A DNA stretch of 64,000 nucleotides, from positions 124,001 through 188,000 of the forward strand of contig NZ_LMSJ01000054.1 in assembly GCF_001428105.1 (NCBI RefSeq), given 5' to 3'. This document shows positions 10,606 through 30,529 of this stretch, piece by piece. Source of the DNA: Paenibacillus sp. Soil766. Lineage in GTDB: Bacteria; Bacillota; Bacilli; Paenibacillales; NBRC-103111. The notes under the pieces were generated by a model, which ran no database searches, was not told where the DNA came from, and saw nothing but the letters and a program-made list of their open reading frames with translations. Within the stretch, counting starts at the first letter, position 1, and each line of letters opens with the position of its first letter. Made by a program: the position numbers and the translations under genes.

Positions 10606-11712
10606 CTAGCATTGATAAAATCCGCCGTAGCCCATCTCCGTGATGTCACTACGCACGATCTCTTCGCCTGCGCAGATGCGCGGCAGCAGCACATCAAAGG
10701 ACGTGTACGGGTCGTGCATCACACAACCCGGCAGGCCCATAATCGGCAGCTCGCCTAGGTAGGCGATCATCAGCATCGAGCCCGGCAGCATCGGCGTGCC
10801 GTAGCTGACCACGCGGGCGCCGGCCGCCTTGATCGCACCCGGCGTGCGATCATCCGGGTCCACGGACATGCCGCCCGTGACCAACACCAGATCCACGCCT
10901 AGCGCCTGCAGCGCGTGGATCTCACCCACGATCGCTTCGCTGTCGTCCAGCGCGAAGCGTTGGTCCACAACCTGGGAGCCGAGCTGCGCGACCTTCTCTT
11001 TCACAATCGGGCCGAATTTATCCTTGATTCGGCCCTTGAACACCTCGCTGCCCGTTGTAATAACGCCGACGCGCAGCGCTCGAAACGGCTTCACCTCGAG
11101 TAAGGTGAAGCCCTCTTTACGTCGAGCCGCGGCTAATCGCTCGACGGCCTCAACCTTCGCTTCGTCGACGATCAGCGGGATCACCCGCGTACCGACCAGC
11201 GAAGCGCCGGCCTGAACGACCGTGTTGCTGCGAATCGTCGACAACACGACTTCATCGATGGCGTTCACGCTGTCGACGAACGCCTTATCGATCTTCACCA
11301 AGCCGTGAATCTCCGATTTCACGTTGACTTTGCCCTCATGCGGATCAGTAAGCTTGAGATACGCACTTGTACTCGCACTTGCACTTGTACTTGCACTTGC
11401 ACTTGCACTCGCACTTGCACTCGCACTTGTACTTGCACCTGTACTCGCATCCATGCCCACAATAGCCCGCGCCATGCGCAAAGCAGCCTCATCCTCATGG
11501 AGATAGCCCGGCTGCAGCTCCATCACATAAATATGCTCCTTACCGATGCTCAGCAGGGCAGGAATATCCGCTTCCGTCACCTGATGACCTTTGCGGAACA
11601 GACGGCCTTTGAACTCGCCTGGCAGAATCTGCGTGAGATCATGCGGAAGTATCATGCCGATCGCATCTTCCACTTTCACCTCGCGCAGCATAGAAGAGAT
11701 ATGCTCTTTCAC
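10606..11712 (-). CDS. Molybdopterin-binding protein (MoeA/MoCF-biosynthesis domain)
   Basis: This is a 368-residue protein whose C-terminal ~200 residues form a molybdopterin-binding (MoCF biosynthesis) domain: VGVITTGSEVFKGRI, then LVTGGMSVDPDDRTPGAI and LPGSMLMIAYLGELPIMGLPGC. The family acts in or senses molybdenum-cofactor synthesis. It is shorter than true MoeA and may be a paralogue. The GTG start overlaps the moaB stop (GTGA), so translation is coupled. Residues ~87-117 are a run of Ala-Ser dipeptides encoded by a hexanucleotide repeat. It falls between the N-terminal part and the conserved EGKVNVKSEIHGLVKID segment and is unlikely to be ancestral. Confidence 0.9.
   Translation of the reverse strand: MKEHISSMLREVKVEDAIGMILPHDLTQILPGEFKGRLFRKGHQVTEADIPALLSIGKEHIYVMELQPGYLHEDEAALRMARAIVGMDASTGASTSASASASASASASTSASASTSAYLKLTDPHEGKVNVKSEIHGLVKIDKAFVDSVNAIDEVVLSTIRSNTVVQAGASLVGTRVIPLIVDEAKVEAVERLAAARRKEGFTLLEVKPFRALRVGVITTGSEVFKGRIKDKFGPIVKEKVAQLGSQVVDQRFALDDSEAIVGEIHALQALGVDLVLVTGGMSVDPDDRTPGAIKAAGARVVSYGTPMLPGSMLMIAYLGELPIMGLPGCVMHDPYTSFDVLLPRICAGEEIVRSDITEMGYGGFYQC
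11361..11450. repeat. Ala-Ser hexanucleotide repeat inside molybdopterin-binding gene
   Basis: About fifteen units of the form GCACTT, GCACTC, GTACTT or GTACTC lie in tandem and encode alternating Ala/Thr and Ser on the minus strand. The unit is the same as in the SNF2 gene at 1485-1590. Confidence 0.9.
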
Positions 11713-13689: not shown

Positions 13690-15645
13690 ATGCTATTACA
13701 AGTTTCTAACATATCCAAAAGCTATGGGGTACGCTCTGTACTCTCTAATATAACGCTTCAAATTGAAAATCGGGAACGCATCGGACTCGTCGGTGTCAAT
13801 GGTGCCGGGAAGTCTACCCTTCTTCAAATCATTGCGGGTGAGATGTCATATGACAGCGGTGATCTTTTTAAAGCGAAGGAAACTAAGATCGGATATTTGA
13901 AGCAAAACAGTGGTCTCAACACGGATAAATCCATCTGGAACGAGCTTCTTAGCGTGTTCAGTTCACTATTGGACACAGAACGCGAACTGCGTGAGCTGGA
14001 AGCCCTAATGGCTGATCCTGACCTCATCTCCGATGAGAAAAAGTATGAAACCACCATGAATCGGTATGCGCTTCGCTCCGAATGGTTTCGTGAACATGGC
14101 GGCTATGAAATTGAGGCCAAGATTCGTGGTATTTTGCACGGGATGGGCTTTGGACAGTTCGCACCAGAGACCTTGGTCAACACCCTCAGCGGAGGGCAAA
14201 AGACGAGATTGGCTCTAGCTAAAATGCTGCTGGAAGAACCCGATCTGCTCATGCTAGATGAGCCTACCAACCATCTGGACATCGCCACATTGACATGGCT
14301 CGAAGGCTATCTGCGCGGCTACCCTGGTGCGATTCTCGTCGTTTCACATGACCGCTATTTCCTTGATGCTTTGGTGACGTCCATTTACGAGATTGAACGC
14401 CATGCCTCCAAGAGGTATACAGGCAATTATTCCCGTTTTATTGAGATTAAAGAAGCGAACTATGAAATAGAATTGAAACAGTTTGAAAAACAGCAGGAAG
14501 AAATCTCGAAATTAGAGGATTTTGTGCAGCGCAACATTGTGCGTGCCTCTACGACGAAGAGAGCGCAATCCCGCCGCAAGCAACTGGAGAAAATGGACCG
14601 TTTGGACAAGCCCATGGGTGATTTGAAACGTGCCTCGTTCACTTTTGAAATTGAACAAACTTCTGGGAAAGAAGTGTTGCAAGTTGACCGACTATCGCTT
14701 TCGTATGATGGCCGAAATCGTCTACTCGACGGAGTCTCCTTCCAGCTTCGCCGTTCCGAAACCGCAGCGCTTATCGGGCCTAATGGGGTCGGGAAATCCA
14801 CCCTGCTCAAAACTTTAATCGGTGTCCACAAGCAAGACGCTGGTACGTTCAAATGGGGTGCCGGTGTCACGATCGGCTATTACGATCAAGAGCAGAAAGG
14901 CTTGAATCCGTCCAACAGCGTGTTGGAGGAAGTGTGGAACACATATCCCCATTTGGAAGAAGCGCGTATCCGCACGGTGCTTGGCAGCTTTCTGTTCAGC
15001 GGCGAAGACGTATTCAAGAAAATTGCTGCATTAAGCGGCGGTGAAAAAGCCCGTGTCTCCCTCGCTAAGCTCATGCTTCAGAAGGCCAACGTATTGATTC
15101 TCGATGAGCCTACCAACCATTTGGACTTGTATAGTAAAGAAGTGTTGGAGTCCGCTTTGATGGATTACGAGGGCACCCTGCTATTCATCTCCCATGACCG
15201 GTATTTCCTCAATAAAATGGCAGAGAGCATGCTTGATCTGCAAAAGGATGGCTTAACCACCTATCTTGGCAACTATGATGACTATGTGGAGAAGAAAGCT
15301 GAGCTTGCTGAAATGGAAGCGAAGCGTCTGGCCAAAGAGGCGGAGAAGAAATCTGCCGGAAATCCCACTTTTGCTGCCGCGGTGAAAGCTGAGCCTTCTG
15401 GTGGTGGCAGTTACGAGGCGGACAAGGTGGCTAAGCGTGAAGAACGCAGTCGTCAGCGGAAGCTAGAACAGCTAGAGCTCGATATTGCTCGACTTGAAGA
15501 AGAAGTGACAGCACTTGAGGTTGAGCTAGCGGATCCCGCTGTGTATAACGACTATATGCTTGTTCAGGAGAAAACGGCCGAGGTTGATAAGCGTAAAAGT
15601 TCGCTGGCGGCATGTTATGAGGAATGGGAAGTTTTATTGGCTTAA
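13690..15645 (+). CDS. ABC-F family ATPase (YdiF-like)
   Basis: This is a 651-residue soluble protein with two ABC domains and no membrane segments. Walker A GVNGAGKST lies near residue 37 and GPNGVGKST near 363. Signature motifs are LSGGQKTR near 166 and LSGGEKAR near 445, each followed by LDEPTNHLD. The inter-domain linker is the Arg/Lys-rich helical P-site tRNA interaction motif (SRRKQLEKMDRLDKP). The C-terminal ~60 residues form a coiled coil. ABC-F proteins act at the ribosome. By its place between the tsa/leuA region and moaC it resembles B. subtilis YdiF, a housekeeping member, rather than an antibiotic-resistance factor. AGGAGGT lies ten bases before the ATG. Confidence 0.95.
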   Translation: MLLQVSNISKSYGVRSVLSNITLQIENRERIGLVGVNGAGKSTLLQIIAGEMSYDSGDLFKAKETKIGYLKQNSGLNTDKSIWNELLSVFSSLLDTERELRELEALMADPDLISDEKKYETTMNRYALRSEWFREHGGYEIEAKIRGILHGMGFGQFAPETLVNTLSGGQKTRLALAKMLLEEPDLLMLDEPTNHLDIATLTWLEGYLRGYPGAILVVSHDRYFLDALVTSIYEIERHASKRYTGNYSRFIEIKEANYEIELKQFEKQQEEISKLEDFVQRNIVRASTTKRAQSRRKQLEKMDRLDKPMGDLKRASFTFEIEQTSGKEVLQVDRLSLSYDGRNRLLDGVSFQLRRSETAALIGPNGVGKSTLLKTLIGVHKQDAGTFKWGAGVTIGYYDQEQKGLNPSNSVLEEVWNTYPHLEEARIRTVLGSFLFSGEDVFKKIAALSGGEKARVSLAKLMLQKANVLILDEPTNHLDLYSKEVLESALMDYEGTLLFISHDRYFLNKMAESMLDLQKDGLTTYLGNYDDYVEKKAELAEMEAKRLAKEAEKKSAGNPTFAAAVKAEPSGGGSYEADKVAKREERSRQRKLEQLELDIARLEEEVTALEVELADPAVYNDYMLVQEKTAEVDKRKSSLAACYEEWEVLLA

Positions 15646-15654
15646 AATAGAAGG

Positions 15655-15684
15655 AGTCCATGTCAGTTGACATGGACTTTTTTG
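15655..15684 (+). terminator. Terminator after ABC-F gene
   Basis: AGTCCATGTC-AGTT-GACATGGACT is perfect and is followed by TTTTT. Confidence 0.92.
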
Positions 15685-15843
15685 TTGTGGAATCGCGGAT
15701 CGAGGAGGTCGGGTTGCTGCCCTGTGGACAAGTTCACAAAATGTTCAAAGTTACCCACAGAAGCAGCAGATTCCCTCTACCTTGCCTTGATAACTTCTTC
15801 CGAAACCGTTCAACCTCTCCTGAAAGAGCTCGAAAGAGCTCTC

Positions 15844-16107
15844 TTATGCACAAAAAAATAATGACGAATTGTTCCGATAATTTAAACTAATCTTTGGGAG
15901 ACCCCGTTTTGTTATACACAACGTTATCCACAGAAAATGGGAGGCATTTTCCGCCCCCCATCCCCCTTTTTTCTATCTTTCCACAAGGTTATCCACATTA
16001 TCCACATTTTCTTGTGAAAAAGTTATCCCTGTTACACACCCTTTAAAAAGGTTGATATCTCGGGTTTTCTTTAAGTTATACACATTGTACACAGGGGTTG
16101 TGCATAA
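15844..16107. other. DnaA-box cluster
   Basis: Seven exact matches to TTATNCACA lie within 264 bases: 15844, 15912, 15924, 15989, 15998 and 16076 on the plus strand and 16099-16107 on the minus strand. One-mismatch copies occur at 15723 (minus), 15751, 16085 and 16122 (minus). Two boxes (15989 and 15998) are directly abutted. No dnaA, dnaN or AT-rich unwinding stretch is adjacent, so it looks like a non-origin cluster that titrates or delivers DnaA. The whole 15646-16176 gap holds no gene. Confidence 0.85.
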
Positions 16108-16176
16108 CCTTGCTCACAAGCTGTGTATATATCTAAGTTTTCTTACAATTTAGCTGCAACGGACGCAAACTGTCGA

Positions 16177-17748
16177 TTACGAAGCTGTTATGACCGTCTC
16201 CGCTCCATCGGACTTCACACTATTTTGCATCCGAATCGCTTGATTACAGGCCGATATGAACGCTTTGGCTACTGCAACAAGGACATCTTGGTCGATCCCT
16301 GTGTTCTTGTATGTCTGGCCGTCAACGGAGATCGTGACCTCGGCTTCCCCGGTTGCTTTCTCACCTGTGGACAATGAGTGCAGTTCAAGATCTGAGAACT
16401 CCACGTCCATCGGAATGGCTTGCTGTAGACAATGCACGATAGCCTCGATCGGTCCTTCTCCAGTGCCGGAGTATACACTTTCTGTGCCCGTCTGATTATT
16501 TCTGACTGAAACGGAAGCAACGCGATTGCGATCACTGCTCGAAATAACCTGCATATGCGACAGTGTGAACGGCTCCATTTGCCCATCAACCGTGCTGCCT
16601 ACAAGCTCCATCAGTTGGTCGTCAGTGACCATTTTCTGCTCATCGGCTACTTCTTTGAAACGCGTATAAAGTGTATCTAGTTCCTCGCCTGTAAGTTCGA
16701 TGCCGAACTGGCCTACTCTGTGCTTCAGTGCGTGGCGACCTGAGTGCTTGCCAAGGATAATCATGGAGCGTGGGATGCCCAGCTTTTCTGGATCCATAAT
16801 TTCGTACGTATTGCGGTTTTTCAGAAGTCCATCCTGATGGATGCCCGCTTCATGTTGGAAAGCATTGCGACCAACAATCGGTTTGTTGTAGGCAATGGGG
16901 AAGCCCATGATGCGGCTAACCATTTTGGATGTATTAAAAATCTCACTCGTCACAATGCCCGTTTCCACGCCCATCGTATGCTTGCGGGTCTCAATCGCCA
17001 TAACCAGCTCTTCAAGGGAACAGTTACCGGCACGCTCACCAACACCGTTCACCGTCACTTCCACATGCGTGACGCCTGCGGCAATAGCCGCCAGACTGTT
17101 GGCAACGGCAAGACCCAGATCATTATGGCAGTGGGCGCTATACTCGACTGTATCGCCGCCTCTTACACTTTGACGCACTCTGCGGAACATCGCGCCATAC
17201 TCTTCAGGAAGTGCATAGCCTACTGTGTCGGGGATGTTCAGAATCGTGGCACCTTCCGCGATGACTGCTTCCAGTACTTCAAAAAGGAATTCATCTCCTG
17301 TCCGCGTCGCATCCATCGGCGAAAATTCGATCCGATCGACGAATTGCTTCGCATAGCCGACCATGGCGCGAGCCATCTCCACCACCTGCTGGCGCGATTT
17401 GCGCAGCTGGAAATCCAGGTGGATGTCCGACGAGGACAGGAACATGTGAATACGTCTGGATGCTGCGTCTTGCGTAGCTTTGACCGCTGCATCGATGTCG
17501 GCTTTCATAGCGCGGGCGAAGCCGCAAATCTCGATGCCTTGCAGCTCGCGTGAAATCTGCTGCACCGCTTGGAAATCGCCAGGACTTGAGATCGGGAAGC
17601 CTGGCTCAATGGTGTCGATGCCCATAATAGCAAGTTGTCTCGCGATGCGAATTTTCTCCTCCGGGTACAGGGATGCGCCCGGCGCTTGCTCACCGTCACG
17701 AAGTGTTGTATCAAAAATGCGAATGCGTCGATTGGTATTGTTTTCCAT
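16177..17748 (-). CDS. leuA: 2-isopropylmalate synthase
   Basis: LeuA condenses acetyl-CoA with 2-oxoisovalerate, the first committed step of leucine synthesis. The 523-residue protein starts MENNTNRRIRIFDTTLRDGEQAPG (catalytic Arg-Asp). It has the metal-binding HCHNDLGLAVANS and NGVGERAGNCSLEE, then a C-terminal LeuA allosteric dimer domain from about residue 400. The ATG at 17748 has TAGGAGGAATAACC upstream; the frame to 17847 lacks such a site. It stands alone, without leuBCD or ilv genes. Its leader is unusual: two leucine T-boxes in series and a 62-bp tandem repeat. Confidence 0.95.
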   Translation of the reverse strand: MENNTNRRIRIFDTTLRDGEQAPGASLYPEEKIRIARQLAIMGIDTIEPGFPISSPGDFQAVQQISRELQGIEICGFARAMKADIDAAVKATQDAASRRIHMFLSSSDIHLDFQLRKSRQQVVEMARAMVGYAKQFVDRIEFSPMDATRTGDEFLFEVLEAVIAEGATILNIPDTVGYALPEEYGAMFRRVRQSVRGGDTVEYSAHCHNDLGLAVANSLAAIAAGVTHVEVTVNGVGERAGNCSLEELVMAIETRKHTMGVETGIVTSEIFNTSKMVSRIMGFPIAYNKPIVGRNAFQHEAGIHQDGLLKNRNTYEIMDPEKLGIPRSMIILGKHSGRHALKHRVGQFGIELTGEELDTLYTRFKEVADEQKMVTDDQLMELVGSTVDGQMEPFTLSHMQVISSSDRNRVASVSVRNNQTGTESVYSGTGEGPIEAIVHCLQQAIPMDVEFSDLELHSLSTGEKATGEAEVTISVDGQTYKNTGIDQDVLVAVAKAFISACNQAIRMQNSVKSDGAETVITAS

Positions 17749-17831
17749 GGTTATTCCTCCTAAGGTATGCCCGTGAGGGCTGTGAATTTGTATGGCGTGT
17801 CGCCTGGTCATGATCAATCCACCTGCTGTAA

Positions 17832-18150
17832 GCGTGATTTTCATCACTACTGTGGTGAATTAGCTGGGTTTTGCAGGTTTCCCCTTCTGTAGTGATGTTT
17901 TTCATCACTATGATGGTGAATTGGGCCTGATTCGGCGCTTTTTCCCTTTTGTAGTGATGTTTTTCATCACTATGATGGTGATTTGAGCTGGATTCGGCGC
18001 GTTTTCCCTTCTGTAGTGATGTTTTTCATCACTACGATGGTGATTTGGGCCGGATTCGGCGCGTTTTCCCTTCTGTAGTGATGAAAAACATCACTATGAT
18101 GGTGAATTTCGCTTATTGAGCCGCATAAGAAATGTTTTTCATCACTAGGC
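17832..18150. repeat. 62-bp tandem repeat with hairpin core, in leuA leader
   Basis: The hairpin AGTGATG-TTTTT-CATCACT begins at 17891, 17953, 18015 and 18077, exactly 62 bases apart, and a conserved unit (ATGATGGTGA..TTCGGCGC..TTTTCCC) fills the spaces. Degraded partial copies flank it at ~17839 and ~18132. In the copy at 18077 the loop is AAAAA instead of TTTTT, so the hairpin is inverted. The array lies between the proximal T-box terminator and the leuA ribosome binding site. Confidence 0.92.
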
Positions 18151-19103: not shown

Positions 19104-20174
19104 TTACCACTCTTCCAACTTCAGTTGTGGCTCAGCTTTCAATTCCATGGAGTCAAACTCCTGCTTGTCCCACTTGAGAAAAGCGGCGGCGCCAATCATC
19201 GCCGCATTGTCCGTGCAGAGCCGGTGCGGCGGCACCAGCAGCGGCACACCCAGCTGCTCGCAGCGCTCGGCGAGCCTGCTGCGCAGCCCCTTGTTCGCGG
19301 CGACTCCGCCCGCGAGCAAAAGCTGTTTCGCGCCGTATTCCTTCACGGCGCGACTTGCCTTCTCCACAAGCACGTCGATGACGGATGCTTGGAAGCCCTT
19401 GGCAATCTGCGCGACCTGAACGGTTTCGCCGCGCATCTTGCTTTGGTTGACGACGTTCAGCACCGCGGATTTCAATCCGCTAAAGCTGAAGTCGTAGGAA
19501 TCTGCCTCGAGCCAGGAGCGAGGCATTTTGATTTCGGAATCGGCTTCCTGTGCAAGCCGATCCACGTGCGGGCCGCCCGGGTAAGGCAATCCCATTGCCC
19601 GGGCAATTTTATCATAGGCCTCGCCGGCCGCATCATCGCGCGTACGCCCAATAATACGGAACTGGCCGGGGCCTTCGAGCAGAATGAGCTCGGTGTGTCC
19701 GCCGGACACGACGAGCGAGATCGAAGGATACACCAGCTCATGCACAAGCTGGTTCGCATAAATATGTCCCGCGATATGGTGGACACCAATCAGGGGGAGG
19801 TCTAAGGCGCAAGCGAGCGCTTTGCCCGCGACGACGCCAACGAGCAGGGCCCCGATTAATCCGGGGCCTTCGGTTACCGCAATGGCGGAGAGCTCATGGA
19901 GCGAAACTCCCGCTTCTATGACGGCTTCCTCCAGCATCCATGTGATCGATTCCACGTGCTTTCGGGAAGCTACCTCAGGCACAACGCCGCCATAGCGTTG
20001 GTGCGTTTCGATCTGGCTGGAAATCACATTCGAACGAATGATTTTCCCATTTTCAACAATGGCCACGGAAGTCTCGTCGCAGCTCGTTTCAATGGCAAGA
20101 ATATACACGGGCTTTGTTGTTGAGGTGTTGAATTGTTTATCCTGTTGCATCTGTTCATTACTCACACTTATCAC
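19104..20174 (-). CDS. tsaD: tRNA N6-threonylcarbamoyladenosine transferase TsaD
   Basis: TsaD transfers the threonylcarbamoyl group to A37 of ANN-decoding tRNAs. The 356-residue protein has ASKHA-fold motifs: ILAIETSCDETSVAI near the N-terminus, EGPGLIGALLVG, the iron-binding HHIAGH, VSGGHTELIL, and PPHRLCTDNAAMIGAA near the C-terminus. The GTG at 20174 gives a ~24-residue leader before the conserved core, so a later start is possible. It is the last gene of tsaE-tsaB-rimI-tsaD and partners with TsaB and TsaE. Confidence 0.98.
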   Translation of the reverse strand: MISVSNEQMQQDKQFNTSTTKPVYILAIETSCDETSVAIVENGKIIRSNVISSQIETHQRYGGVVPEVASRKHVESITWMLEEAVIEAGVSLHELSAIAVTEGPGLIGALLVGVVAGKALACALDLPLIGVHHIAGHIYANQLVHELVYPSISLVVSGGHTELILLEGPGQFRIIGRTRDDAAGEAYDKIARAMGLPYPGGPHVDRLAQEADSEIKMPRSWLEADSYDFSFSGLKSAVLNVVNQSKMRGETVQVAQIAKGFQASVIDVLVEKASRAVKEYGAKQLLLAGGVAANKGLRSRLAERCEQLGVPLLVPPHRLCTDNAAMIGAAAFLKWDKQEFDSMELKAEPQLKLEEW

Positions 20175-30438: not shown

Positions 30439-30529
30439 TTTGCGGTCCGCTTTTGCGTGCCTCCGTTTGAGAACCTCTCGCCTAGGAAATAATTGTGAAT
30501 AAAAGCTCAAAAGGAGCGATTCCAAGCCT

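Follow-up and report, generated by a model that had tools for sequence, protein, structure and literature searches.

The presence of seven exact copies of the DnaA-box motif TTATNCACA within 264 bp of a Paenibacillus contig raises the question of what purpose such an array might serve outside a replication origin. The window, i.e., the whole 64,000-nucleotide stretch of DNA that was analysed, derives from the draft genome of a Paenibacillus closely related to P. plantarum, P. qinlingensis, and strain Soil750. The boxes occupy positions 15844-16107, in a gap flanked by an ABC-F gene and leuA, whose 3′ ends face each other across it (gene order ydiF > cluster < leuA < tsaD), and beyond leuA follow tsaD, rimI, tsaB, and tsaE. 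A first-pass annotation of the sequence had noted seven sites, two of them abutting, and all were found: they start at 15844, 15912, 15924, 15989, 15998, and 16076 on the plus strand and at 16099 on the minus strand. The locus comprises the following features:

13690-15645, plus strand: ydiF-like ABC-F ATPase gene, left flank, 3′ end facing the cluster (ribosomal protection-like ABC-F equivalog NF000355, 503.8 bits; position equals that of ydiF in relatives)
15655-15683, plus strand: ydiF terminator, an inverted repeat plus T run (10-pair stem at 15655-15678, listed on the other strand; T run seen directly in the sequence)
15646-16176, no strand: non-coding gap carrying the DnaA-box cluster, devoid of ORFs of at least 100 aa and of Rfam matches above the gathering score
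15844-15852, plus strand: DnaA box TTATGCACA, recent, absent from most relatives
15912-15920, plus strand: DnaA box TTATACACA, conserved
15924-15932, plus strand: DnaA box TTATCCACA, conserved, a 12-bp step after box 15912
15989-15997, plus strand: DnaA box TTATCCACA, first member of the abutting pair, conserved
15998-16006, plus strand: DnaA box TTATCCACA, second member of the abutting pair, following directly, conserved
16013-16021, minus strand: one-mismatch box TTTTTCACA, conserved
16076-16084, plus strand: DnaA box TTATACACA, conserved
16085-16093, plus strand: one-mismatch box TTGTACACA, abutting box 16076, mostly conserved
16099-16107, minus strand: DnaA box TTATGCACA, inverted, proximal to tsaD/leuA, conserved
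16177-17847, minus strand: leuA, right flank (NF002086, 679.8 bits; TIGR00973), which in this lineage has come to lie between cluster and tsaD
19104-20174, minus strand: tsaD (gcp; TIGR03723, 434 bits), whose 3′ side bears the cluster across the phylum

Chance clustering of the boxes is ruled out by simulated counts and permuted motifs. The composition model predicts 0.02 exact sites for the 531-bp gap, and the maximum per simulated gap was two (20000 simulations); five additional one-mismatch sites are present in the same gap. Across the whole window, nine exact sites were counted versus 2.2 expected, a number that was reached in none of 100 shuffles. The two sites outside the cluster are located at 30494 and within ydiF at 15540; the latter (15540-15548) constitutes an eighth exact DnaA box in the 3′ part of that gene, 300 bp off the cluster. 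Several boxes within ~300 bp, above chance and with dnaA and dnaN elsewhere, characterize the array as a DnaA-box cluster outside oriC. A non-coding RNA was also considered for the gap; its one hit in Rfam, to SR1 (minus strand), reached 28.6 bits compared with a gathering score of 45 and was taken as chance. Elsewhere in the window, at 10606-11712, low-complexity DNA gives rise to a predicted protein with a long Ser-Ala repeat (SASASASA).

The first-pass annotation had pointed to a DnaA-box cluster at gcp-ydiF in B. subtilis, and such a cluster is indeed on record (PMC4447404). The B. subtilis region described as "downstream of gcp; downstream of ydiF" (region 4) harbors 10 sites and is one of the ten regions that DnaA binds most strongly in vitro, with a Kd of 0.15 uM in the presence of ATP and 0.33 in the presence of ADP; at 55 nM DnaA, ATP led to the recovery of 16x more DNA (PMC4447404). 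As judged from gene order, the cluster in the window is the positional counterpart of this region: in both cases a DnaA-box array resides in the gap between a convergent ydiF and the tsaD side, at an origin-proximal chromosomal position in relatives. The Paenibacillus cluster differs in that it is separated from tsaD by leuA and ~1.2 kb and in that it has seven exact boxes, two of them abutting, as predicted DnaA-binding sites. In Saccharibacillus spp., ydiF, cluster, and tsaD follow one another directly, and leuA is missing at this place there and in B. subtilis-like genomes, as anticipated by the suggestion that the position of the cluster had been retained despite the insertion of leuA. The direct order tsaD-cluster-ydiF, joining the tsaD 3′ side to the ydiF 3′ end, recurs in other families, and among 80 named ydiF loci most of those that reach far enough carry boxes downstream of ydiF. 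The B. subtilis clusters at ywcI/vpr, ywlC, yydA, trmE/jag, and sda/yqeG likewise consist of several boxes outside oriC; no counterparts of these were detected among the close box pairs of the Paenibacillus genome.

A survey of close-pair box patterns in that genome revealed further clusters on contigs C24, C32, and C4. Box clusters outside the window are found between an hpf-like gene and a flagellar (fliS-like) region (L095:11614-11697), near a PAP2-like gene (L096:9468-9522), and upstream of a tadA-like gene (L097:6028-6097), the last with ychF and prfA ~2 kb away. In some complete relatives, clusters that look homologous occur no more than a few hundred kb from dnaA. A 32-33-bp module, TTATACACA-(T)TTGTACACAGG-GTTGTGNATAA, is common to two clusters of this genome, at G000:C24:65245-65277 and at window positions 16076-16107, which suggests that one cluster was copied from the other or that the arrangement is favoured.

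The distribution of the boxes beyond the genus was assessed in 83 loci downstream of tsaD from the same class (48 families; the 82 with tsaD inside were counted) and in 20 loci from 20 families of other classes of the phylum, a sample that favoured genomes with long contigs. In the class, the first 500 bp past the tsaD stop contain 4.34 boxes/kb versus 0.12/kb further downstream; in the other classes, the corresponding values are 3.30 and 0.09/kb. Over the 48 class families and the 20 others, this amounts to a ~36x difference in density. At least three boxes within 400 bp occur somewhere in the locus in 30 of 48 class families and 9 of 20 other-class families, while 200 permuted motifs yielded at most 3 loci with at least three (first 65 loci); together with the simulations, these figures place the box density far from that of random AT-rich DNA, one of the comparisons on which the first-pass annotation had staked its reading. 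In 200 class genomes, 85 copies of the abutting pair TTATNCACATTATNCACA were counted (reversed control: zero); 31 of the 85, against ~0.5 expected, lie within 10 kb of tsaD, and 24 of these within 1 kb. Outside the class, ydiF is mostly missing and the neighbour, as read from its first residues, is a radical-SAM-like, Lgt-like, or other gene. Since the neighbour changes in this way, the deep anchor of the cluster is the tsaD 3′ end and not ydiF: the conserved position proposed earlier was thus kept, but it belongs to tsaD and not to the tsaD-ydiF pair, and it extends to other classes. The counterpart of the B. subtilis "sink" is found at tsaD in most sampled families of the phylum and looks ancient and selected. 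In the literature searched, no earlier description of its phylum-wide conservation and phasing was found.

The cluster probably represents a high-affinity DnaA sink whose boxes are arranged for cooperative binding and which restrains initiation. We infer that DnaA, mainly in its ATP-bound form, would bind the array cooperatively in Paenibacillus and that the protein held there would be withheld from oriC, so that initiation would be delayed or buffered. The replication fork would copy the cluster soon after initiation, and the resulting doubling of sinks would help to prevent early re-initiation. Of the two roles raised in the first-pass annotation, titration of DnaA is thus the probable one, and handing DnaA on is speculative, no sign of it having been found here. 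Removal of six clusters outside oriC from B. subtilis caused early initiation, an effect described as strong only with all six gone (PMC5295017, PMC13220808, each with reference to Okumura 2012). In 31 genomes, the distance between dnaA and tsaD or the cluster spans 6-28% of the chromosome (median 13%), and in four complete genomes of the genus the cluster lies 10.9-13.4% from dnaA (the genome under study being a draft), a distance that may mirror conserved gene order and does not constitute independent functional evidence.

Orientation and spacing of the boxes bear on how such a sink might be organized. Near tsaD, 172 boxes point against the direction of tsaD and 38 along it, and the inverted box is commonly the one nearest to tsaD, as is the case in the window. 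Same-strand neighbours tend to be spaced by multiples of 10.5-10.75 bp (n=87, R=0.61, p=0.0002), also when values above 15 bp are each counted once (n=37, R=0.46, p=0.0006). The period was derived from the class loci and checked in held-out loci fetched later, which gave p=0.001 over the full set of spacings, p=0.053 when restricted to spacings above 15 bp, and p=0.0001 at 15-80 bp, a range picked afterwards; phasing was present there up to ~80 bp and weak beyond. At oriC, a single inherited value of ~105 bp dominates the spacings, rendering them uninformative as a phasing comparison. The phasing puts neighbouring boxes on one helical face, which suggests that DnaA molecules contact one another, a reading whose strength is limited by shared ancestry of the spacings. 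A passive sink needs none of these features: helical phasing, fixed polarity, and a recurrent abutting pair would also fit a structured nucleoprotein complex that alters the state of DnaA by hydrolysis, nucleotide exchange, or filament remodelling, as a counterpart of E. coli datA/DARS. The conserved anchoring at a single locus and the strong preference of the B. subtilis counterpart for ATP-DnaA favour this reading as well. Like the cluster, datA and DARS1/2 are non-coding, contain DnaA boxes, and have a conserved location relative to oriC (PMC4585315). They differ in acting on the nucleotide state of DnaA with IHF or Fis. B. subtilis has no known regulator of DnaA nucleotide state and is devoid of IHF, and the phasing is also favoured by cooperative binding alone; a state-altering complex is unlikely.

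It appears decidedly improbable that the boxes control transcription of a flanking gene, as in the sda type. An uncharacterised, apparently exported ORF of ~740-860 aa (L026:12192-14648, L105:6366-8597, L149:8678-10894) has the cluster immediately upstream in many families; in many relatives it is located between cluster and ydiF and points away from the cluster. Outside the class, other genes pointing away from tsaD take this place. The ORF has no NCBIfam match; its weak sulfatase-like Pfam match stays under the cut-off. In the window, however, the cluster sits between two converging genes, and the one promoter-like match equals the level of shuffled sequence. Moreover, the downstream gene varies by lineage (unknown ORF, ydiF, leuA, radical-SAM-like, Lgt-like), and several members of the genus have lost it while retaining the cluster. 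Control of the adjacent ORF as sole function was rejected because the ORF is missing in the genome under study and in seven of 24 relatives (G006, G008, G012, G018, G019, G021, G022) in which the cluster is present; the cluster is also retained in G003, where the ORF is interrupted by a stop, and in G002, where only a partial match remains.

The gene order around tsaD is conserved in itself, and the boxes might thus be chance or relict AT-rich sequence retained by synteny. This is highly improbable in view of how the cluster has evolved. The block is kept in 24/24 relatives of the genus, the outcome of another test that the first-pass annotation had set for itself. In an alignment of 33 Paenibacillus rows, 0.86 of the box letters are identical versus 0.65 outside the boxes. 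Six of the seven boxes are near-invariant in their fixed letters whereas their surroundings drift, and in four of these six conserved boxes the N position is variable (0.21-0.79). Conservation of fixed letters together with a free N is the footprint expected of selection for DnaA binding, which contradicts passive hitchhiking, and none of the 200 permuted motifs gave anything comparable. None or one box was found in 12 of the 48 class families, the tsaD-ydiF neighbourhood being intact in some; families f26, f28, and f3 (the survey's own labels) have tsaD near ydiF but no cluster. The fact that synteny can be retained without boxes argues against passive carriage of the boxes by gene order, and it also means that some lineages can do without the cluster.

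A second or ancestral replication origin is an exceedingly remote prospect, even though the cluster contains seven exact boxes compared with four upstream of the genome's own dnaA, since neither dnaA nor dnaN adjoins the gap and the B. subtilis clusters are described as inhibitory sinks for which use as alternative origins is unlikely. As the first-pass annotation had held, the cluster lies away from both genes; dnaA resides on another contig (C41) and has no exact box between it and dnaN. The box layout of this region (L103:8930-10762) is shared with the complete relatives G003 and G015, unlike most sampled Bacilli. The encoded DnaA carries GGRDHTTV in domain IV.

How replication is timed in Gram-positive bacteria lacking Hda, SeqA, or datA is the question that these observations address. 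A single DnaA sink that had kept its place at the same gene throughout the phylum would hardly be a dispensable copy. A tentative and rather doubtful reading is that the tsaD-linked cluster might be an ancient control site of the phylum, at which a defined, phased DnaA complex would set the level of active DnaA. If true, B. subtilis would possess a functional analogue of datA that has so far passed for one of six redundant sinks. The conserved polarity and spacing of the boxes give testable predictions by which a structured complex could be told apart from passive titration.
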